41,544 nucleotides of DNA from contig CADAPH010000001.1 in NCBI GenBank assembly GCA_902789745.1, positions 1-41,544 of the forward strand, in the 5' to 3' direction. Below, piece by piece: positions 1-10,098 of this stretch; position 1 is the first letter of the stretch, and each line of letters opens with the position of its first letter. Below the pieces are notes generated by a model. That model was not told the DNA's origin, made no database searches, and saw only the letters and a list, made by a program, of their open reading frames with translations. Source of the DNA: Oscillospiraceae bacterium. GTDB lineage: Bacteria; Bacillota; Clostridia; Oscillospirales; Oscillospiraceae. The translations under genes and the position numbers were made by a program.

Positions 1-3000
1 GATCGCGTCGTAGTAGCCGATTTCGTGATCCAGGAACATGTCGACGGCAATCTGCCCGTTCTCGGCGCGCTCCGCTGCGACGCCCTCCATATCCAGAAGA
101 TCGGTGAGGATCTGGGCGTTGAGGTCGATATCCTCCGCCATCAGCACGCGCAGACCCTCCAGCGAGACCTCATCCTCCGCGGCTGCGGCTTCGGGTTCCG
201 CCTCCGCTTCGACAGGCTGAATATCGCCGGTATTGAGCAGGATCGTGTGCAGCTGGCGCATGACGTTGTCCGTGAAGAGAGGCTTGGACATGACGCCCAC
301 GATCCCCAGAGCCTCCGCCTCGTCCCGCAGATCGTCCCAGTTATAGCCGGTCAGCAGAATGACGGAGGTCTTGCCGCCGTCGAATTCGCGGATGACGCGC
401 GTAAGCTCAAGGCCGTTCATGCCGGGCATACGGTAATCCAGCAGCAGGAACTGATAGGGAATACCCGCATCCCACTTCTCGCGGATACGCCTGAGCGCGT
501 CCTCCGCGCTGAGGGAAGCGTCGGAATCAATGCCGATATCCCGCAGGATGAGCTGCGCATGCTCGAGCTCTACCTCGTTGTCGTCCACGACCATAACACG
601 CAGACCCTTGGGCAGCGTGACGGCGTCGGCCTGGCTTACGGTGCGGCTGGAGGATTTGAGCGTGACCGTGACGGTGAAGGTGGTGCCGAAGCCCTTCTCG
701 CTTTCCACGGCGATATCGCCGTTCATCATTTCCACCAGATTCTTGGTGATGGCCATGCCGAGACCAGTGCTGCCGTAACGGTTGGCCGCGCCGGAGTTCT
801 CCTGAGAAAAGGCATCAAAGATCTTCGGAATGTATTCCTTGCTCATACCGATGCCGGTGTCCTTGATGACAAAGCGCATCATGCAGTAGTCGTCAAACCT
901 GGTGGCCTGTTCGACCGTCAGGGAGACGCTGCCGCCCTCAGGGGTGAACTTGACGGCGTTGCCGAGAATGTTGATCAGCACCTGCTTGAGCTTCATATCA
1001 TCGCCGATATAGTAGTCGTTTACATGGCCGATGATACGGCAGTCATAGTGCAGACCCTTGTCTGCGCACTGACCGTTGATGATGACGTTGATCTGATCCA
1101 GGAACACGCGGAAGGAGAATTCCTCTTCCTTCAGCGCCATTCTGCCGGACTCGATGCGGCTCATATCCAGAATATCGTTGATGAGGCCCAGCAGATGCTT
1201 GGCGCTGGAGCCGATTTTCTCCAGATGCTCCCTGGTACGGGGCGAGAGATCCGGGTCCTTCAGGGCAATGTTGTCCAGGCCGATGATGGCGTTCATGGGG
1301 GTGCGGATCTCATGGCTCATGTTGGACAGAAAGCTGGTCTTGGCGCGGCTGGATTCCTCGGCGAGGATTTTTTCACGCTCGATCTGCTTTTCGCGCCGGT
1401 GGATGATCGCGGAGCTGTTGAACAACGTGATCATCGCGACCACCACAAAGGCGATCTGGACAAGGCTGTTCTTGGTGAAGGAGTCATTGAGCCTGTGAAT
1501 CTGTTCGTCAATCATCCGCTCCGAGCTGTGGTGCATGTCGTCGGAATGGGGAATGCCGTTTTCCTCGAGAAATTCCACATAGTACTCGTGGATGTTGTTG
1601 ACGGCCTCCGTCGCTGTGGTGTTGGAGGACTGGCGCATCCAGACAAGGGAGCAGAACAGCGTCAGCGACAGCATGACGACCCACACAATGGTGGAACGGC
1701 CCATGTGCTTCGTCTGATCCCGCAGCAGCAGGAAGCGGAAGGCAATCAGGCCCAGCACGCTCCACAGCGCGAGAATAAGATAGGACTCATGCGACAGCGC
1801 GGTGACGGCCAGCAGGTTCGGCACCAGATAATACAGCAGCAGGATCAGCGAGAAGGACACGCCGATCAGGCCGGTGATTTTCACGATCCGGTTGTTCATC
1901 TTCCGCGCGGTTTTCAGCGCGGAGGCGGAGACATAGGCGTAGGCGACCGCCGCGCCGACCGTTGTCACGTCCACGATCCAGCCGACTGCCGTGCGGCCGA
2001 AAAGCGGAATGAAGACGGAGATCCCCATGATGAGAAGAATGGCGTTTTCCGGAATACCGCGCTTGTTGAGCCTGCCGAGCGGGGCGGGCATCATGCCCTC
2101 CAGCGCCATGGAGTAGATCAGGCGGCTGGCGGCAATGGTATTGCCCACAATGCCGGTGATGACAGCGCCCAGAATGGTAAAGACCAGAATCGGTGTCCCG
2201 ATCGGCCCCAGCGTGGTCGTCACGGCATAGAAGACAGGCGCGCCCTGAAGACCGTCCAGACTGTCCTTCGCCGCAATGTAGTCCGCCCAGTTGTCAAAGC
2301 CTGCGGGGAGTACGGAGGCCGCGACGATGGACAGCGACACATAGGCGAGTGTGCCGGTGACAAGCGCCAGGCCCATGATGGGCAGCGCCCTTTTCACCGA
2401 GAAACGGAATTCCCCGGTGGAGTGGGAGATGGACTCAAAGCCCACAAAGGCCCAGGGACCCATCGCGATGATGGTAAACACGCCTACCCAGGGCTTCCTG
2501 CCGGGCGCAAAGGCGGGCGCGTAGGAGGCAAGGCCGCCCTCATGATTCCTAAAGACCGCCGTGGCGCAAATAAGCACGCCCACGCACAGAAGCAGCGCCA
2601 TCGCGATCTGCACAGTGAGGATAACCTTCCCGCGGGTGCAAAGCAGGCTGAAGAGAATCAGCGCGCCGATGGCAAGCAGCAGCTCGCCCAAATAGATGTC
2701 AAAGCCGGCGACCTCATAATGCAGGCCGAACTGGAAGACGTTTCCCAGCAGGAAGCGGCCGATCAGCGGCAGGGCGGTGGCGTTGGCCCAGACGATGGCG
2801 ACGTAGGTGAGCAGAATAAACCACGCCGCGACGAAGCCGTGATCCGCGTCGAAGGTGTTGCGCACAAAGCTGAGCGCGCCGCCGTCGTCGGGATAGAGCT
2901 TCATCATGTAATGGTAGTTGACGCCCACGATCAGCATGATCAGGGCGCCAATCAGAAAGCCGAGCGCCGTCCCCAGCGGGCCGGCTACCGGAAGAAAGCT

Positions 3001-3126
3001 GTTGCCGGGCATCATGAAGGCACCCCAGCCGACAGCACAGCCGAAGGAAAGCGCCCACGCGCCGAGCGGGGTTACGCTGCCGGCCAGCTTTGCGCCTTCC
3101 TTAACGGGTTTGGAGGCTGTGTTCAT
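1..3126 (-). CDS. APC amino-acid permease / hybrid histidine kinase fusion, cut by left window edge
   Basis: Membrane sensor kinase in which an entire amino-acid/polyamine permease-like module (about residues 1-470, many hydrophobic helices) precedes a further extracytoplasmic loop (about 495-548), a transmembrane helix (about 550-568) and a cytoplasmic kinase. The kinase has the HisKA H-box NMSHEIRTPMNA with phospho-acceptor His605, an N-box (NILGNAVKFTP), G1 box (DTGIGMS) and G2 box (STGLGMAI). A receiver domain follows from about 843 with acidic residues D851/D852 and acceptor Asp897 in LLLDYRMPG. A second receiver starts near 994 (AEDIDLN); its acceptor lies beyond the window. 1042 codons are visible and the C-terminus is missing. 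It is the third gene of a minus-strand operon, 47 nt after the Hpt gene. Transporter-kinase fusions are known (CbrA type); that this one senses amino acids is inference from the permease family. It may transport, sense, or both. Confidence 0.9.
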   Translation of the reverse strand, partial: MNTASKPVKEGAKLAGSVTPLGAWALSFGCAVGWGAFMMPGNSFLPVAGPLGTALGFLIGALIMLIVGVNYHYMMKLYPDDGGALSFVRNTFDADHGFVAAWFILLTYVAIVWANATALPLIGRFLLGNVFQFGLHYEVAGFDIYLGELLLAIGALILFSLLCTRGKVILTVQIAMALLLCVGVLICATAVFRNHEGGLASYAPAFAPGRKPWVGVFTIIAMGPWAFVGFESISHSTGEFRFSVKRALPIMGLALVTGTLAYVSLSIVAASVLPAGFDNWADYIAAKDSLDGLQGAPVFYAVTTTLGPIGTPILVFTILGAVITGIVGNTIAASRLIYSMALEGMMPAPLGRLNKRGIPENAILLIMGISVFIPLFGRTAVGWIVDVTTVGAAVAYAYVSASALKTARKMNNRIVKITGLIGVSFSLILLLYYLVPNLLAVTALSHESYLILALWSVLGLIAFRFLLLRDQTKHMGRSTIVWVVMLSLTLFCSLVWMRQSSNTTATEAVNNIHEYYVEFLEENGIPHSDDMHHSSERMIDEQIHRLNDSFTKNSLVQIAFVVVAMITLFNSSAIIHRREKQIEREKILAEESSRAKTSFLSNMSHEIRTPMNAIIGLDNIALKDPDLSPRTREHLEKIGSSAKHLLGLINDILDMSRIESGRMALKEEEFSFRVFLDQINVIINGQCADKGLHYDCRIIGHVNDYYIGDDMKLKQVLINILGNAVKFTPEGGSVSLTVEQATRFDDYCMMRFVIKDTGIGMSKEYIPKIFDAFSQENSGAANRYGSTGLGMAITKNLVEMMNGDIAVESEKGFGTTFTVTVTLKSSSRTVSQADAVTLPKGLRVMVVDDNEVELEHAQLILRDIGIDSDASLSAEDALRRIREKWDAGIPYQFLLLDYRMPGMNGLELTRVIREFDGGKTSVILLTGYNWDDLRDEAEALGIVGVMSKPLFTDNVMRQLHTILLNTGDIQPVEAEAEPEAAAAEDEVSLEGLRVLMAEDIDLNAQILTDLLDMEGVAAERAENGQIAVDMFLDHEIGYYDAI

Positions 3127-3173
3127 TTGAAATCAGGTCCTTTTGAAAGAATCCGGAGCACAATCGCGCGCCG

Positions 3174-3542
3174 TCAGCCCTGTTCATACTGCCGGATACC
3201 GTCGACGGTGTGCCGATACATGACGCCGATATCGGCGATCCTTGCCTTGACCTCGTCGTCGGAAAGCGAGCGGGGGTTGCCGGGGCGAAACTCCTCGGTG
3301 ATCTCTCCGGCTGCGGCGGCCATCTTGTCAAAGCCCATATTGGCGCACACACCCTTCATGGCGTGGGCGCTCTCAAAGAGGGCGGTGGGGTCCATGCTCT
3401 CGCCGGCGGCGGCCAGCGACTCGTAGACGCCGCTGCTGGGGAACTTTGAGAGGTAGCGGTTGATCAGCTTTTCCATGCGCATGATCTGCACGGCGTGGTC
3501 GTAGTTTCCGTCAATGCTCGCGTATAATTCCTGTAAAGTCAT
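3174..3542 (-). CDS. Free-standing Hpt phosphotransfer protein
   Basis: A 122-residue protein, probably all-helical, with the histidine-phosphotransfer motif ESAHAMKGVCANMG; His60 is the predicted phosphate carrier. It has no signal peptide, membrane segment or other domain, so it is a soluble shuttle. Its ATG overlaps the TGA of the upstream REC-GGDEF-EAL gene (ATGA), which suggests translational coupling and matched amounts. The downstream gene is a hybrid kinase with receivers, and the upstream gene has a receiver at its N-terminus. The simplest reading is kinase His605 to receiver Asp to Hpt His60 to the receiver of the EAL protein. The phosphate route is inferred from gene order and domain content. 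Confidence 0.85.
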   Translation of the reverse strand: MTLQELYASIDGNYDHAVQIMRMEKLINRYLSKFPSSGVYESLAAAGESMDPTALFESAHAMKGVCANMGFDKMAAAAGEITEEFRPGNPRSLSDDEVKARIADIGVMYRHTVDGIRQYEQG

Positions 3543-5242
3543 GATTTTCTCTCCTTTGATGCTTCAATTTCTTTTATAATCAGTTTTTCAAATTCCTCCG
3601 CTGGAAGAGGGCGGGAGAAGTAATAGCCCTGCACATAATCGCAGCCTGCAGCCTTCAGAAGATTCATCTGGTGCGCGGTCTCCACGCCTTCTGCGACCAC
3701 CGGCACGCCGAGATATCCGGCGATGTCGAGGATCAGCTCGATCAGGCGGAAGCTGCGGGTATCCTCATCAACATTCTGGATGAATTTCATATCCATCTTC
3801 AATACGTCGATGGGCAGACTCGAAATGGTGTTGAGGGAGGAGTAGCCGGAGCCGAAGTCGTCCATCTCGATTTCAAAGCCCAGGTCGCGCAGGCGCTGAA
3901 TGACGGCGACGAGCTGTTCGGAGTCGTCCGTGTACGCAGACTCCGTGACCTCCAGCTTCAGATCCTTCGCATTCAGCGCGTTGCTGCTGATCAGGCGAAG
4001 AAGCGTCTTTTCCAGCTCCGGGTCAAAGACCTCCGTCCGGGAGAGGTTGACCGACAGCGGCAGCGTAATGCCGTATTTCCCGCACCAGACCGCGATCTGG
4101 TGCGCTGCCGTCTCCCATACGTATTCGTCGACCACGTGGATCAGGCCGTTCTGCTCGAAGAGCGGGATAAAGTCGCCGGGGGGAATCATACCCAGCTCCG
4201 GATGCTTCCAGCGCACCAGCGCCTCCGCGCTGTTCAGGCGCGGCGGATGACACTGAATATCGTACTTGGGCTGATAAAACACCACGAATTGCTTTTCCTC
4301 CACCGCCCGGCGCAGATCGTTGAGCAGCTGCTGGGAGTAAAGCTCCTTCCTGCGGATGTCTTCGTCGTATACCATCAGGTGCGTCTTGTAGCTGCCGCGC
4401 ACCATGTTGCAGGCGGTTCGCGCCCGGTCGAACAGGACGGCGGGCGAACCGTCGTTGTCTCCCGGGCAGACACCCATGCGCAGGCGGATGGCCACGCGGA
4501 TCGACAGATCGTTCAGCGTCCGTTGGAGATAATTGAGCAGGGCATGGTAATCCTCGCAGTGCAGACAGTAGATGCAGAACAGATCCGCCTCCATGCGGCA
4601 GGCGATGCCGTCGGTTCCGGCGAGATAATCCCGGATCGCGCTGCCCAGCGTGCGCAGGACGCTGTTGCCGAAGGCCCGTCCGTTCAGCTCGTTCACGGAG
4701 TGGAAGCGTTCAATATTGATGACGATCGCATCCATACGCCACTGGGGATGATAGCGGTGGATCTGATCGGCGTACTCAAGAAAGAAGCCGCGGTTATACA
4801 GATTCGTCAGCGGGTCGCGCTCCGCCGCCCGGATGAGCTGACGGCCTTCGCTGAGCTCAATGATCCTTGCGACGCGGGCGAGGATCACCTCATGCATGTC
4901 ATAGGGCTTGGTGATGAAATCCGCCGCACCCATCTGAAGCGCCTGCAGCTCCGCCGATTTTTCGGCAGTCAGCACGATGATGGGGATGCGCCGCATCTCC
5001 TCGTCTTCCTTCACGCGCCGGAGCACCTCGAAGCCGTCCATCACCGGCATCATCAGATCCAGAAGGACAATGGACAGCGTCTGCACATTGGCCTGGATCA
5101 TCTCCATGGCGATCGCGCCGTTCTCGGCAAAGAGGACGTCGTAATCATCCTCCAGAATCATGCCCAGGATATCGCGGTTGAGCTCCTGATCCTCAACCAC
5201 CAATACCTGTCGGCGGCGCTGTAGCTTTTTCGACTGAATCAT
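3539..5242 (-). CDS. REC-GGDEF(degenerate)-EAL response regulator, probable c-di-GMP phosphodiesterase
   Basis: A 567-residue soluble protein. Receiver domain at about 12-130 (VVEDQELN acidic pair, acceptor Asp in LLDLMMPVMDG, and the conserved Lys in FITKPYD). GGDEF-fold domain at about 140-300, in which the signature loop reads RMEADLF instead of RxGGDEF, so cyclase activity is probably lost. EAL domain at about 310-555 with all usual catalytic motifs: EALVRW, EVTES, DDFGSGYSSL, KMDMKFI, AEGVET and QGYYFSRP. It should therefore hydrolyse c-di-GMP, with the dead GGDEF perhaps sensing GTP (family knowledge). The ATG at 5242 has an AGGAGG site 5 nt upstream. First gene of the operon with the Hpt and permease-kinase genes, and its likely output. 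Confidence 0.9.
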   Translation of the reverse strand: MIQSKKLQRRRQVLVVEDQELNRDILGMILEDDYDVLFAENGAIAMEMIQANVQTLSIVLLDLMMPVMDGFEVLRRVKEDEEMRRIPIIVLTAEKSAELQALQMGAADFITKPYDMHEVILARVARIIELSEGRQLIRAAERDPLTNLYNRGFFLEYADQIHRYHPQWRMDAIVINIERFHSVNELNGRAFGNSVLRTLGSAIRDYLAGTDGIACRMEADLFCIYCLHCEDYHALLNYLQRTLNDLSIRVAIRLRMGVCPGDNDGSPAVLFDRARTACNMVRGSYKTHLMVYDEDIRRKELYSQQLLNDLRRAVEEKQFVVFYQPKYDIQCHPPRLNSAEALVRWKHPELGMIPPGDFIPLFEQNGLIHVVDEYVWETAAHQIAVWCGKYGITLPLSVNLSRTEVFDPELEKTLLRLISSNALNAKDLKLEVTESAYTDDSEQLVAVIQRLRDLGFEIEMDDFGSGYSSLNTISSLPIDVLKMDMKFIQNVDEDTRSFRLIELILDIAGYLGVPVVAEGVETAHQMNLLKAAGCDYVQGYYFSRPLPAEEFEKLIIKEIEASKERKS

Positions 5243-5508
5243 GGGTGCCTCCTGAAGCCGCTGGCTGTCAGCGGTTTACTGGTATGCCGCGTCCGGCGTT
5301 CTGCCCGGCCCCTATCCGCGCCTGAGCGCAGGAACAGGGCTGTTATTCGGTCGCTGCGGGCAGAGCAAGGAAAACCGATGCGATAAAAAAACTATATCTC
5401 TCTAATCCTATATAATACAGCAAAGAACAGAAAATGGCAAGAAAAATTCCTGCTTTTTCCTTCATTTCCGCAACGGCGAAGTATATCCGAATTGCGGGCA
5501 AGAGAAGC
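5243..5508. other. AT-rich divergent intergenic region
   Basis: The spacer between the minus-strand signalling operon and the plus-strand phosphorylase operon. It holds an AT-rich core (about 5380-5470) with several TATAAT-like words on both strands. I see no credible gene: short ORFs here lack ribosome binding sites and have random composition. The promoter for the signalling operon should lie here, but I cannot single out one -35/-10 pair. Confidence 0.5.
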
Positions 5509-5537
5509 TTGCATGCCTGCGCGGGGACTGGTATAAT
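5509..5537 (+). promoter_or_regulatory. Sigma-A type promoter for pgmB-GH65
   Basis: TTGCAT at 5509-5514 and TATAAT at 5532-5537 are separated by 17 nt. The predicted start is about 55 nt upstream of the pgmB ATG. The leader contains a small GGCGG/CCGCC inverted repeat (about 5549-5571). Confidence 0.65.
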
Positions 5538-5599
5538 CATACGGGAGAGGCGGTGTTTGCGCCGCCGTAAAAAAGACGAAAAACTGCGGAGGGAAGACG

Positions 5600-6241
5600 A
5601 TGAAGTATAAAGGCGTTATTTTTGACCTGGACGGCGTGATCTGCTCCACCGACCACTATCACTATCTGGCATGGAAGGCGCTGGCCGACAGGCTCGGCGC
5701 GTACTTTGACGAGACGATCAACAACCGCCTGCGCGGCGTGTCGCGCATGGCAAGCCTCGAGATCGTGCTCGAGCGCTACGACGGGCAGCTTTCCGAGGAA
5801 GAGAAGCTCGCCGCGGCGGAGGAAAAAAACAACACATATCGGGAGCTTTTGAAGCAGATGTCCCCGGCGGATCTGGCGCCGGAGGTAAAGGCGACGCTCG
5901 ACTGGCTGCGTGCGCAGGGGCTGCTGCTGGGCATCGGCTCCTCCAGCAAGAACACAAAGTTCATTCTGGAACGGATTGGCCTCGGCGGGTACTTTGACGC
6001 GATCTCCGACGGCACGAACATCACCCGCTCCAAGCCCGATCCCGAGGTCTTTCTCAAGGGCGCGGAATTTCTGGGGCTGGAGCCGAAGGACTGCCTCGTG
6101 GTCGAGGACGCAAAGGCCGGGATCGAAGCGGCGCTGGCTGCCGGGATGGACGCCGCCGCCATCGGGGACGCGGTCTCCTGCGGCCTGGCCACCTACAATC
6201 TCACGCGCTTTTCCGATCTGATCGACTGCGTAAAAGAATAA
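5600..6241 (+). CDS. pgmB: Beta-phosphoglucomutase
   Basis: A 213-residue HAD-superfamily enzyme that converts beta-glucose 1-phosphate to glucose 6-phosphate in the cytosol. The N-terminal motif FDLDGVI supplies the nucleophile Asp and the acid/base Asp (about D9/D11). The cap has the beta-PGM-type segment RLRGVSRMASLE. SSSKN (motif II), a Lys in the SKPDPEVF motif and VVEDAKAGIEAA (motif IV) follow. Length matches the family (about 215-225). GGAGG lies 8 nt upstream of the ATG. It is followed after 11 nt by a GH65 phosphorylase, the classic pairing: the phosphorylase makes beta-Glc-1-P and PgmB feeds it to glycolysis. Confidence 0.92.
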   Translation: MKYKGVIFDLDGVICSTDHYHYLAWKALADRLGAYFDETINNRLRGVSRMASLEIVLERYDGQLSEEEKLAAAEEKNNTYRELLKQMSPADLAPEVKATLDWLRAQGLLLGIGSSSKNTKFILERIGLGGYFDAISDGTNITRSKPDPEVFLKGAEFLGLEPKDCLVVEDAKAGIEAALAAGMDAAAIGDAVSCGLATYNLTRFSDLIDCVKE

Positions 6242-6252
6242 GGAGGATCGAC

Positions 6253-8520
6253 ATGGAGGCAAAATTTCCCTATCAGCCATGGGAAATCACGGAGCTCGGC
6301 TTCTCTGCCAAAGATCTGCGGGAGAACGAATCCGTCTTTGCCCTCGGCAACGGCTTCATTGGCATGCGCGGCAATCTCGAGGAGGGGAGCGCCACGGGTG
6401 CCGACACGATCCAGGGCAGCTTCTTAAACGGCGTCTTCGATTCCGAGCCGATCGTCTACGGCGAGAAGGCATACGGCTACGCGAAAAACCATGAGACCAT
6501 CTGCAACGTCATGGACGCGAAGAGTCTGACACTGTTTGCCGACGGGGAGAGGCTGGACATGGGCCTCAGCGACGTGCGCGATCACCGGCGCGTGCTGGAC
6601 ATGCGCACGGGCGTGCTGCGCCGGGGCTTTGCGTGGCACACCAAAGGCGGCGCGGTGCTGGAGGTCGAAATGACCCGCCTTGTGAGCTTTACGCGGCAGG
6701 AGCTTGCCGCGGCGCGGCTTGATGTGAAGTGCCCGGAGGGTGTCTGCACACTCACCGTGGAGAGCGCCGTTGCCCCCGCCGTCATCGCGGAGGGGGATCC
6801 CAACGATCCCCGCAACGCCGCCGGAAAAGACCGCAGCCTGACCCTTGCCGGGCTTTTCGCCGAGGACGCGGTCATCGCCATGGAGCAGAAGACCAAGAAC
6901 AGCGGCTTCACCATCTGCTGCGCGGTGGAGCACCGCGGCGCGGAGGGCAGCTCGGCAAAACATGAAAACATGGCGGTGTGGAAGACGGAAATCAAGCTCC
7001 GGGCAGGGGAGAGCTTCCGCCTGGATAAGAGCATCTGCTACATGGCCGCCCGCTATGACGAAGAGCCGGCCCTCTGGGAGAAGACGCTTGACGGGTGCAA
7101 AGCAGCCCCGGATTTCGACACGCTTCTCCAAGAGCAGCGCGCGAGTCTCGACGCCTTCTGGAACGGCGCGGGCCTGGGCATCGAGGGGGACGATGCGCTT
7201 TTGCAGGGACTGCGCTTCAACCTCTTCCATATCTTTCAGTCCGCGGGCCGTGACGGCAGGCGCAACATCGCCGCCAAGGGCCTGACGGGCGAGGGCTACG
7301 AGGGCCATACCTTCTGGGATACCGAGGCGTACATCCTCCCGGTGTTTATCCACACCGATCCCGCGCTTGCCCGCAAGCTCCTGGAATACCGCTACGCCAT
7401 CCTGCCGAAGGCAAGGGAGCGCGCGCGGGAGCTGGGACATGAAAAGGGCGCGCTCTACGCCTGGCGCACCATCGACGGCGAGGAATGCAGCGCCTACTTC
7501 CCGGCGGGCACCGCCCAGTATCACATCAACGGCGATATCGCCCACGCCGTCTGCGAGTATTATGACGCCGCCCAGGATCTGGACTTCCTCGCCAAATTCG
7601 GCGCGGAGATCCTGGTGGAGACGGCGCGGCTTTACTATGACCTCGGCTTTTTCAGCGCGGTGAAGAACGGCCGTTTTGTCCTCAACTGCGTGACCGGGCC
7701 GGACGAGTACAACGTCATGGTCAACAACAACGTCTACACCAACTGCGTGGCGGAAGAGAACTTCCGCAGCGCGGCCGAGGCGATGGCACTGCTTGCCGAT
7801 AAGCGGCCGCAGGACTATGACCGGCTCTGCCAAGCGCTTGCTTTTCATCCCGCCGAGGCGGAGCTGTGGCTCGTGGCGGCGGATCGCATGTATTATCCTG
7901 CCCCGCAGGACGGCATCTACCCGCAGGACGACGATTTTCTCAACCGCAAGCCCTGGCCGCTGAGCACCATCCCGGCGGACAAGCATCCGCTGCTGATCCA
8001 CTACCACGGCCTGACGATCTACCGGCATATGGTCTGCAAGCAGGCTGACCTGATCCTCGCCATGACCCAGTACGGCGATCGCTGGACGATGGAAGAGAAA
8101 AAGAAAAACTTTGCCTTTTACGACGGCGTCACCACCCACGATTCCAGCCTCTCCATGGCGGTCTTTTCTATCCTCGCAAACGAGATTGGGGAGGTGGGCG
8201 TCGGGTACGACTACTTCATGTCCTCGGCACGGCTGGATCTGGACGATATGCACCACAATACCAAAGACGGCCTGCACATGGCGAATATGGCGGGCACCTG
8301 GACGGGCCTTGTTCGCGGCTTCGGCGGTATGCGCTGCAAGAATGGGAAGCTGAGCTTTGCACCCGTATGCCCGCCCCAGTGGAAGGGCTACTCCTTCTGC
8401 GTGGGCTACCGCGGCAGCACCGTACAGGTCAGCGTTCACGCCGAGGGCGCGGAATACAAGCTCCTCTCCGGAGAACCGATCACGATCTTGTCCCATGGGA
8501 AACCGGTTGCACTGAGATAA
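6253..8520 (+). CDS. GH65 disaccharide phosphorylase (maltose/trehalose/kojibiose phosphorylase family)
   Basis: A 755-residue cytosolic enzyme, typical for maltose phosphorylase-type GH65 proteins. It phosphorolyses an alpha-linked glucose disaccharide with inversion, giving beta-glucose 1-phosphate plus glucose. Family marks: N-terminal NENESVFALGNGFIG-like strand, the FWDTEAY motif of the (alpha/alpha)6 barrel, and TGPDEYNVMVNNNVYTN with Glu485 in the position of the known general acid. The phosphate-site region KQADLILAM and the THDSSLSMAVFSILA segment are also present. AGGAGG precedes the ATG by 6 nt and overlaps the end of pgmB, so the two are one operon. Substrate (maltose, trehalose, kojibiose or nigerose) cannot be decided from sequence reading alone. 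The nearby MalEFG-type importer is a plausible supplier. Confidence 0.9.
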   Translation: MEAKFPYQPWEITELGFSAKDLRENESVFALGNGFIGMRGNLEEGSATGADTIQGSFLNGVFDSEPIVYGEKAYGYAKNHETICNVMDAKSLTLFADGERLDMGLSDVRDHRRVLDMRTGVLRRGFAWHTKGGAVLEVEMTRLVSFTRQELAAARLDVKCPEGVCTLTVESAVAPAVIAEGDPNDPRNAAGKDRSLTLAGLFAEDAVIAMEQKTKNSGFTICCAVEHRGAEGSSAKHENMAVWKTEIKLRAGESFRLDKSICYMAARYDEEPALWEKTLDGCKAAPDFDTLLQEQRASLDAFWNGAGLGIEGDDALLQGLRFNLFHIFQSAGRDGRRNIAAKGLTGEGYEGHTFWDTEAYILPVFIHTDPALARKLLEYRYAILPKARERARELGHEKGALYAWRTIDGEECSAYFPAGTAQYHINGDIAHAVCEYYDAAQDLDFLAKFGAEILVETARLYYDLGFFSAVKNGRFVLNCVTGPDEYNVMVNNNVYTNCVAEENFRSAAEAMALLADKRPQDYDRLCQALAFHPAEAELWLVAADRMYYPAPQDGIYPQDDDFLNRKPWPLSTIPADKHPLLIHYHGLTIYRHMVCKQADLILAMTQYGDRWTMEEKKKNFAFYDGVTTHDSSLSMAVFSILANEIGEVGVGYDYFMSSARLDLDDMHHNTKDGLHMANMAGTWTGLVRGFGGMRCKNGKLSFAPVCPPQWKGYSFCVGYRGSTVQVSVHAEGAEYKLLSGEPITILSHGKPVALR

Positions 8521-8585: not shown

Positions 8586-10016
8586 TCAAAATAATGAATC
8601 GACGGGAGGCTCCGGAACGGAAGCGGAATCCGACGTGGACGTCATGTCCAAGTCGGCGGGAAAATTGTCAACGCTTGTCGTTTCCGAATCACCGTCGCCA
8701 TTGAACCCGGGGATTTGGCTGACAGGAGGTTCCGGGACAGAAGCAGACGTGGACTCATGATAATCCTGCTGTCCCTGCTCCTCCTGCTCCGTGAGGCTCG
8801 CCAGTATGGTGAGCGGTTCCATAATATTGGGTTCAGAAAGATCCTGATTGCTTTGGACATCGTTCCCGAAAACTTCATCAAGAGGTGTATCAGGGATCAG
8901 CGGATGACCGGACTCACCGGGAAAACCGGACTCACCGGGAAAACCGGAACCGCCGGGAAAACCGGAACCGCCGGGGATACCGGAACCGCCGGGGATACCG
9001 GAACCGCCGGGAATACCGGAACCACCGGGAATACCGGAACCGCCGGGAATACCGGAACCACCGGGAATATGAGACCAGCCCGGATCGTTGGGAATGCCGG
9101 GATCGAACCAGATAGGCGCACAGTGCGGATATTTACACCAGTAGTCATACCAGAACCAGGGATAATCCCAATAGCAGGGATCGTCGCAGCAATAATAGCA
9201 GAACCAGTCCCACCAGGTCCAGCCGGAAGCACACTGATTCTGGACGGGCTGATAGGTCCAGATCCATGCCGGTTCCGAATATACGGGGCCGCCCTCGCCG
9301 CTGAAGCAGGCCTGCACCTTGCAGCCGTTCATCCAGGAGGGAATGCCGCTCAAAGACAGAGTATCGGAATAAGCGCCGGAGATATAGAGACCGGTCACGA
9401 CGGAGGTAGCCTCAGCCGCTGTTGTGACAAGACTGTTGTCGGAATTGGCGATGTACCAGGTGACGGAGACTGCATTGGCGGCGTGGGCGATGAACATGCA
9501 CGAACCGCCATAGGGGACAGATTCGCTCGTCGGGTTTTTCGTGATCCGCACCTTGCCGGCTGAGCTTGTCAGGGGAGCCGCGCTGTTGAACGGAGCCGCG
9601 CTGTTGAACGGACCCGCGGAAGCGGCAGAGGTAACCGGGGAAGCGACTGACGATGGGGATGATTTCGTGTCTGTATTTGCGGTTGAGGAATTCTGCGGAG
9701 ACGGAGCGGCAAATGTCTCGGCAGATGAGAGCGCGTCCGGCTGTGCGGCGGCGTCAGAAGCTGCCGGAGCGGAAGCGACAACGGTAGGAAGCGGCTTGAG
9801 CTCCAGAGGGACGGTTTTTGATTCCGCCGGGCTTGGCTGTTCCTCAGAAGCATCTTCGATAAGAATTACCTTTTCGCCGCAGTACGGACAGACCTTGCTG
9901 TCAACCGGAATCTGTTTTCCGCAGATCCTGCAGTATAAAACGTCATTCGCAAAAGCCTGCAAGCCCAGGGAAACCATCATCACCAAGGCGAGAAGCAGAC
10001 AAAACACACGCTTCAT
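8586..10016 (-). CDS. Secreted protein: zinc ribbon, Ig-like region, Trp/Tyr/Cys-rich patch, collagen-like repeat
   Basis: 476 residues from the ATG at 10016, which has AAAGGTGG 8 nt upstream; an in-frame GTG at 10028 is less likely because the Shine-Dalgarno abuts it. Order: Sec signal peptide (about 1-24, ending QAFA); a four-Cys zinc-ribbon motif CRICGK...CPYCG (about 29-48); a Ser/Ala/Pro-rich linker; an Ig-like stretch with [10 protein letters not shown] (about 145-245). Then come a patch extremely rich in Trp, Tyr, Cys and Asp (about 250-300), about 18 Gly-X-Y triplets (GIPGGS units drifting to GFPGES), and an acidic Ser/Thr tail with SVPEPPV twice. No sortase motif or membrane anchor is seen. 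The family is not recognised. It may be a surface or matrix protein; the zinc ribbon straight after a signal peptide is odd for an exported protein. Confidence 0.75.
8904..9071 (-). repeat. 18-nt tandem repeat encoding collagen-like Gly-X-Y triplets
   Basis: About nine copies of an 18-nt unit (plus-strand core ACCGGAACCGCCGGGAAT) encoding the hexapeptide GIPGGS on the minus strand. Copies at the low-coordinate end differ in step ([12 protein letters not shown]), so variation is graded along the array. All units keep Gly at every third residue, so the array is under coding constraint or recently expanded. Confidence 0.9.
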
Positions 10017-10098
10017 GGTTTTTCCCACCTTTCCAAATAGAGAAGCAAATCGTACATTTTGGGTTTACATAAAAGCAAAAACCACAATCTTTAGTATC

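Follow-up and report, generated by a model that had tools for sequence, protein, structure and literature searches.

What is the role of a histidine kinase (HK) that carries an entire amino acid permease as its input, and where would its signal go? The question is raised by three genes at the start of a 41,544-nucleotide stretch, hereafter the window, which is the whole of a 41.5-kb contig in the 3.08-Mb draft genome (272 contigs; 85.6% complete, 6.1% contamination) of an Oscillospiraceae bacterium. On the minus strand, a gene for a protein with receiver (REC), GGDEF and EAL domains (5242..3539) is followed by a free Hpt (3542..3174) and then by the permease-kinase fusion (3126..1), and the original prediction took this set to be a self-contained route from amino acid presence or flux to hydrolysis of cyclic di-GMP (c-di-GMP). 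Our analyses show that, when the fusion carries two receivers, its linkage with Hpt and REC-GGDEF-EAL genes is real. The best reading of this two-receiver cassette, and in our judgement a rather probable one, is a phosphorelay from a solute to c-di-GMP through a permease-derived sensor, as read from the sequence. The features of the cassette are as follows.

3539..5242, minus strand: REC-GGDEF-EAL protein of 567 amino acids (aa) with a degenerate GGDEF motif (EADLF) and the full EAL catalytic set (Pfam).
3174..3542, minus strand: free Hpt of 122 aa with the phospho-His motif AHAMKG (Pfam Hpt, 1.6e-7).
3126..1, minus strand: permease-kinase fusion, 1042 aa in the window (Pfam).
1723..3126, minus strand: APC-type permease module of the fusion, residues 1-468, with GCAVGWGAF in transmembrane segment (TM) 1 and PWAFVGFESISH in TM6 (Pfam AA_permease_2 / AA_permease).
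1360..1722, minus strand: LINK hairpin, residues 469-589, with two extra hydrophobic segments and a variable loop of about 60 aa between them (alignment, hydropathy).
637..1347, minus strand: histidine kinase core, HisKA plus HATPase_c, residues about 594-830, with the motif SHEIRTP (Pfam).
259..597, minus strand: first receiver (REC1), residues 844-956, phospho-Asp intact (Pfam).
1..150, minus strand: second receiver (REC2), of which the first 50 or so residues are present before the contig end cuts it (home-made hidden Markov model, HMM).

Pfam placed Response_reg (residues 13-120), GGDEF (141-279) and EAL (308-545, 6.6e-67) on the 567-aa protein, and AA_permease_2 (21-454, 3.8e-21), HisKA (595-661), HATPase_c (708-823) and Response_reg (844-956) on the fusion. 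The permease belongs to the APC families (PF13520/PF00324), its AA_permease_2 match scoring 75.9 bits against a cut-off of 27 and covering positions 4-420 of the 427 in the model; profile comparison gives CAT4 9hjk, 5oqt and AdiC as its relatives in the PDB. Permease and HisKA do not adjoin: between them is a LINK of about 115 aa, in which simple hydropathy shows hydrophobic segments at residues 479-497 and 558-576. This LINK could be aligned in 31 permease-LINK rows, for 30 of which an HK or GGDEF output was called. The ATGA at 3539-3542 makes the Hpt start overlap the stop codon of the REC-GGDEF-EAL gene by 4 bases, and here coordinates, strand, gene order, domains and overlap all agree with the original prediction. 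So does its description of a kinase bearing a whole APC-type permease and two receivers: Pfam sees one receiver stretch in the window's fusion and the partial REC2 was detected by the home-made HMM, and a locus with 93.7% DNA identity to the window over 8.5 kb (L039, genome G054) encodes a complete 1119-aa kinase with two Response_reg stretches. A frame or assembly artefact is ruled out by the occurrence of the same operon in L039 and in 28 other, mostly divergent, cassettes.

Relatives were sought with fusion residues 1-590 as query in 149 related genomes, 52 of which gave matches, free permeases among them; the matching open frames cluster at about 750, 950, 1120 and 1430-1490 aa. The loci analysed were 57 regions plus 80 named loci, the best 80 of at least 589 stretches, and the counts given here describe close relatives. 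Domain calls in these loci relied on home-made HMMs, with the window as seed and the window plus L039-L095 as training set, and were checked with Pfam on the three window proteins plus 17 open reading frames (ORFs) of other loci. At 95% identity the 107 permease-kinase ORFs reduced to 97, the window being among the 10 dropped and represented by L039. Linkage was counted for full fusions preceded by 2.5 kb or more of sequence; neighbours had to be on the same strand, and Hpt within 600 bases upstream. Loci L176-L194 were kept outside these counts, and nine fusions with another linker were left out of both groups. Under this rule, two-receiver fusions (PERM-LINK-HK-REC-REC, where PERM is the permease) have Hpt in 31/34, Hpt plus REC-GGDEF-EAL in 27/34 and, further upstream, a second hybrid kinase (HK-REC) as well in 24/34. 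Single-receiver fusions, on the other hand, have Hpt plus REC-GGDEF-EAL in 2/40 (L123 and L054) and REC-GGDEF-EAL in 1 more (L160). The difference is large (Fisher p about 2e-11, for rows that are related and not phylogenetically independent) and persists under a looser rule of either strand within 5 kb (27/34 versus 3/40). The two groups together give 29 cassettes, 27 with two-receiver and 2 with single-receiver fusions, and the 4-base overlap of Hpt with REC-GGDEF-EAL is found in 14 of them. Cassettes with three or more flanking ORFs form 351 pairs, 15 of which share a non-signalling flanking homologue; such rarely shared flanks indicate that the cassette outlives its surroundings and, with the linkage counts and the Fisher test, rule out chance neighbours. 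Conservation of the neighbours with the fusion, the check proposed with the original prediction, is thus borne out for the two-receiver form. Outside the counts, Hpt and an EAL gene adjoin the single-receiver fusion of one locus (L191).

The residues needed for a relay are also kept, as counted over all ORFs found without removal of duplicates (the 40 free REC-GGDEF-EAL ORFs are 35 non-redundant ones at 95% identity). The H-box His is present in 43/43 two-receiver and 54/54 single-receiver kinase ORFs, the phospho-Asp in 44/44 REC1 and 42/44 REC2 (the other two being gaps), the phospho-His in all 55 Hpt ORFs found, and the receiver Asp, Thr and Lys in 40/40 free REC-GGDEF-EAL ORFs. The cassette therefore co-encodes a hybrid kinase, an Hpt and a terminal receiver with all phospho-sites intact, which is the predicted composition of a multistep phosphorelay. 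The catalytic set of the phosphodiesterase (EAL, N, E, DD, K, E, Q) is kept in all 40, window included. GG[DE]EF, on the other hand, occurs in none of the 40, EADRF being the commonest replacement (15) and EADLF that of the window. The 567-aa protein is thus a predicted phosphorelay-controlled c-di-GMP phosphodiesterase, a bifunctional cyclase/phosphodiesterase being disfavoured by the degenerate GGDEF. REC2 shares on average about 57% identity with HK-REC receivers, 51% with the receiver of single-receiver fusions and 27% with REC1 (first 20 sequences per group), and the likeness of REC2 to the HK-REC receiver suggests that the two share a partner, most simply Hpt.

In the phosphorelay that we propose for the two-receiver cassette, the input would be a small solute that binds to or passes through the APC permease module and is probably an amino acid or a compound akin to one. 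The resulting change would be carried by the LINK hairpin to the kinase, which would phosphorylate its receivers. REC2, and by inference not REC1, would dock with the free Hpt and hand phosphate on to it; Hpt would in turn phosphorylate the receiver of the REC-GGDEF-EAL protein, whose EAL domain would then alter c-di-GMP hydrolysis. In most relatives this Hpt is probably also fed by the second membrane hybrid kinase, whose receiver is close to REC2. The ligand class, the choice between binding and transport, and the direction and sign of phosphate flow are likewise what we infer from these parts.

Beyond what was originally noted, the larger point is that permease plus LINK is, on domain calls, a reusable sensor on several outputs. 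It is fused to a single GGDEF in 17 ORFs, with the motif intact in 16 and the remaining one cut short. In 12 further ORFs of about 1300-1490 aa it heads one chain, PERM-LINK-GGDEF-REC-GGDEF-EAL, in which the first GGDEF is intact in 12/12 and the second degenerate in 12/12; the motif is intact in 28/29 cyclase-type permease fusions overall. The receiver of the one-chain protein is 49% identical to that of the free REC-GGDEF-EAL protein, and an overlapping Hpt directly follows it in 4/12 (L070, L071, L072 and L082). Since the one-chain protein joins the permease module to a REC-GGDEF-EAL homologue, it lends the relay a Rosetta-stone kind of support. Of the remaining architectures, type iii inserts about 300 aa between PERM-LINK and HK-REC-REC, and type iv, the nine fusions with another linker, joins the permease to HK-REC; REC-GGDEF-EAL lies upstream in 3/9 of the latter. 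By eye, 6/9 type iv fusions (L073:6542-13863, L080, L081, L084, L085 and L086) have a REC-GGDEF-EAL gene or a long chain in the same locus. At L048 and L049, PERM-GGDEF (its GGDEF cut short in L049), the long chain and PERM-HK-REC-REC stand in tandem, followed by Hpt, REC-GGDEF-EAL and HK-REC. In Butyrivibrio sp. WCD3002 and MB2005, an intact-GGDEF REC-GGDEF gene precedes the single-receiver fusion by 24 and 8 bases, respectively, and the fusion here stands beside a likely c-di-GMP synthase instead of a phosphodiesterase; a simple motif search did not find the phospho-Asp in the receiver of that REC-GGDEF protein. These loci (L156:7118-14354 and L171:7096-14342) contain a divergent Hpt, REC-GGDEF, PERM-HK-REC and another HK-REC.

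The closest sequence relatives of the permease module are free APC permeases from the same genus and class (17 aligned; e.g. L069, L068, L092 and L183), with 43-46% identity for the nearest three and without LINK or signalling output. Twelve positions, D95, W113, A114, E231 and T389 among them, are the same in at least 95% of 123 LINK-type fused domains and in at most a quarter of the 17 free ones; W113, A114 and E231 are identical in 123/123 fused domains and in 0/17 free permeases, W113 and A114 being replaced in 17/17. TM6 reads mostly GFDxIP in free permeases versus GFESISH in fused ones. Aligned with Escherichia coli AdiC, E231 corresponds to E208, W225 to W202 and W113 to W98, next to C97, and in AdiC W202 and these neighbours line the arginine site. 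The site residues shared by kinase- and cyclase-fused forms suggest that both respond to one class of ligand. NCBIfam names were of no use for naming that ligand, every match lying far below the curated cut-off and implying no substrate. In a permease tree of 121 rows after an 85% identity cut (a quick tree with Shimodaira-Hasegawa-like approximate likelihood ratio (SH-aLRT) supports, no bootstrap, and free L187 long-branched), 108 fused and 13 free domains fall on two sides of one branch with SH-aLRT 100. One clade (100) holds 13 of 14 PERM-GGDEF proteins, all 6 long chains and one type iii kinase (L059), the remaining PERM-GGDEF (L162) standing beside a single-receiver kinase (L140) with support of 84; another (95) holds 31 of 32 two-receiver fusions plus four single-receiver ones. 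This layout suggests an early, single fusion of the permease, after which outputs were swapped several times.

Several observations weigh against the phosphorelay reading. As many as 32/40 single-receiver fusions have no Hpt, REC-GGDEF-EAL or intact GGDEF gene within 5 kb, so a c-di-GMP route is not claimable for those 32. Among the 34 two-receiver fusions, 3 of the type with the roughly 300-aa insert (L059, L064 and L091) are without both partners, and in 4 others (L148, L155, L169 and L175) Hpt is present and REC-GGDEF-EAL was undetected upstream. L044, which shares a small clade with the window, lacks REC2 and has neither Hpt nor REC-GGDEF-EAL beside it, but fusion and cyclase are kept, which implies that the fusion can work otherwise. 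The correlation of distances among permease plus LINK, kinase, Hpt and REC-GGDEF-EAL over the 29 cassettes (r 0.41-0.73, with 0/2000 permutations as high in each of six tests) speaks for the relay, but it comes from a test that leaves shared species history in. The TM1 GWG is common to the free permeases, so transport is neither shown lost nor kept; a loss of transport read from TM1 and TM5 residues was dropped on the same ground, the TM5 Lys being found in neither group. The sign of the output is also affected: five close relatives (L039-L043) and L044 have, at most 1.7 kb downstream of the fusion, a gene for a cyclase of 453-490 aa whose GGDEF is intact (the equivalent position in the window falls beyond the contig end), and a same-strand intact-GGDEF gene is found downstream in 6 of the 19 cassettes with at least 3 kb on that side. 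With an intact cyclase downstream, net sign and net hydrolysis are not established. What stands of the proposed route to c-di-GMP hydrolysis is thus the linked parts and the intact EAL residues, and not net hydrolysis in view of the cyclases of L039-L044. Finally, the second kinase could be the real donor to Hpt.

This last point is the basis of the best surviving alternative, a node of two kinases in which HK-REC drives the relay through Hpt and REC-EAL and the permease kinase acts mainly as a phosphatase or modulator, draining or tuning it with the solute; if true, the phosphodiesterase would be less phosphorylated in the presence of ligand. REC-GGDEF-EAL has an HK-REC gene of 490-564 aa in front of it in 26/29 cassettes, which makes the description of the route as self-contained too strong, and the HK-REC receivers resemble REC2. 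Hybrid kinases can run backwards, a property that also favours such a node. At its N-terminus HK-REC has a short conserved stretch in which simple hydropathy shows two to four hydrophobic segments and for which Pfam, in the two examples scanned, gives no family above cut-off; this stretch is possibly an undescribed small membrane sensor. At L041:10891-12558 (minus strand), L134:5344-6840 (plus strand) and other loci, the conserved membrane region before HisKA reads ...GSALMVYNIYGFIRFAR...GYLAVGxFGxPDLIxAGILFGGS.... However, HK-REC is not beside the cassette in the window or L039, and a search with its membrane region, which found it in G068 and G049, found none in G000 (the window's genome) or G054, both draft genomes, although the two retain the permease kinase, Hpt and REC-EAL. 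We regard the two-kinase node as unlikely.

An improbable alternative is a permease that works as an active transporter under the control of its own kinase and receiver tail, with flux as the main output and the c-di-GMP genes as co-regulated neighbours. The whole APC domain is kept by profile, TM1 and TM6 motifs included, CbrA, a transporter-kinase, transports histidine according to the excerpted text of PMC13022988, and the 32 single-receiver fusions that lack a c-di-GMP neighbour are as this explanation would have them; but the same module also sits on GGDEF domains with intact motifs, where a tail for regulating transport would need no cyclase, and Hpt plus REC-GGDEF-EAL track the two-receiver form. 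That the permease is a ligand-free membrane anchor or dimerisation platform, with the signal coming from the LINK loop (a hairpin with a variable loop of about 60 aa in 31/31 aligned rows) or from the membrane, has little probability, because a bare anchor would hardly keep W113, A114 and E231 invariant near the presumed substrate site in 123 fused domains, an argument weakened by the LINK-less type iv, which has W113 in 1/9 though E231 in 8/9.

The phosphorelay from solute to c-di-GMP may be part of a wider scheme, which we put forward tentatively. The APC permease plus LINK would be a general bacterial solute sensor that goes back to a single recruitment of a free permease and has since been exchanged between histidine kinases and diguanylate cyclases. 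One solute would then drive c-di-GMP up via PERM-GGDEF and down via PERM-HK, Hpt and REC-EAL, sometimes from one tandem locus, and this push-pull arrangement, which may sense flux, would be a nutrient switch controlling exopolysaccharide in gut anaerobes. The sensor would supply the c-di-GMP network of rumen bacteria with a candidate nutrient input; the cassette is one of several inputs in view of the 13 EAL matches in the window's genome. PilZ was found in 4/6 genomes searched. The window's genome has PilZ at the N-terminus of a family-2 glycosyltransferase of 601 aa (L199:1330-3135, G000:C13), which makes polysaccharide synthesis a candidate c-di-GMP target; the adjoining gene is, by eye, polysaccharide deacetylase/SGNH hydrolase-like. 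A c-di-GMP-I riboswitch as effector was found in 0/6 genomes, but all 14 controls were equally silent. The sensor module occurs in many gut Clostridia and Selenomonadaceae, plus records labelled Coriobacteria, Erysipelotrichaceae and Chloroflexota; the labels of the loci are Oscillospiraceae, Lachnospiraceae, Selenomonadaceae, Erysipelotrichaceae, Coriobacteriaceae/Atopobiaceae and Flexilinea (Chloroflexota), from mostly ruminant-gut assemblies by title. Labels of other phyla may reflect transfer or misbinning, and GC contents of cassette and flank are similar in L122, L137 and L144. Among 391 genomes drawn evenly from the class, 15, the window's genome included, were listed with a match at 1e-50; of these, six others have frames of at least 738 aa, with an output domain called in 5/6.

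Around the cassette in the window, one weak promoter-like site was found in 2900-5800, where 1.2 were expected.

5412..5440, minus strand: weak promoter-like site in the divergent intergenic region 5243-5599.

Divergent from the cassette, positions 5600-8520 (plus strand) carry genes that from their sequence are HAD/beta-phosphoglucomutase-like and GH65 disaccharide phosphorylase-like. They are followed at 8586-10028 (minus strand) by a gene whose 480-aa product looks secreted, begins in the manner of a CxxC zinc ribbon and contains a run of GIPGGS-type repeats.

How does this cassette relate to known systems? As here, RocS1-RocR and VieSA are hybrid-kinase routes with receiver-EAL output; their sensor domains are not known to be transporters and their EAL proteins are of other make-up. 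On the input side, the SLC5/STAC histidine kinases CbrA (PMC13022988), RpuS (PMC9100948) and CrbS (PMC5715377), as described in excerpts of these papers, likewise serve nutrient sensing and carry, within a single chain, a secondary transporter on the N-terminal side of the kinase. CbrA, however, has an SLC5 transporter in place of the AA_permease found here, has STAC and PAS between transporter and kinase, neither of which was detected in the fusion, and acts through the transcription factor CbrB; cyclase-fused versions are not mentioned in the part of PMC13022988 examined. Among the fusion's Pfam matches at 0.001 there is no sodium:solute symporter family, nor is there any match between residues 455 and 594, the presence of a STAC model in Pfam being unchecked. 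Membership of the CbrA (SLC5/STAC) family was rejected because Pfam gives AA_permease. Ks-Amt5, also named in the review PMC8534201 and in PMC10433425 (both in excerpt), is alike in being a transporter fold turned sensor on a histidine kinase, ion binding replacing transport, but it has a trimeric Amt fold and 679 aa, and in the portion of PMC5764959 consulted receivers are not mentioned and the response regulator is not identified. Yeast Ssy1 (PMC12958826) and Gap1 (PMC11109136) share the use of an amino acid permease fold as receptor but, in the passages available, have no kinase or cyclase in the chain, Ssy1 working through Ptr3/Ssy5. For an APC permease fused to a kinase or GGDEF, no report was found among the entries listed in searches of open-access literature, as judged from titles and the openings of abstracts, which is weak evidence of absence. 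In the sections seen, transporter-receptor fusions are called rare (CbrA: PMC13022988; transceptors: PMC11109136), the latter paper describing the transceptors reported before its S-component case as few and eukaryotic. The permease-derived sensor described here adds at least five architectures, several of them fused to or linked with c-di-GMP enzymes and, since the same module is found on kinase and cyclase outputs, the readout of a transporter fold would become directly comparable between the two.

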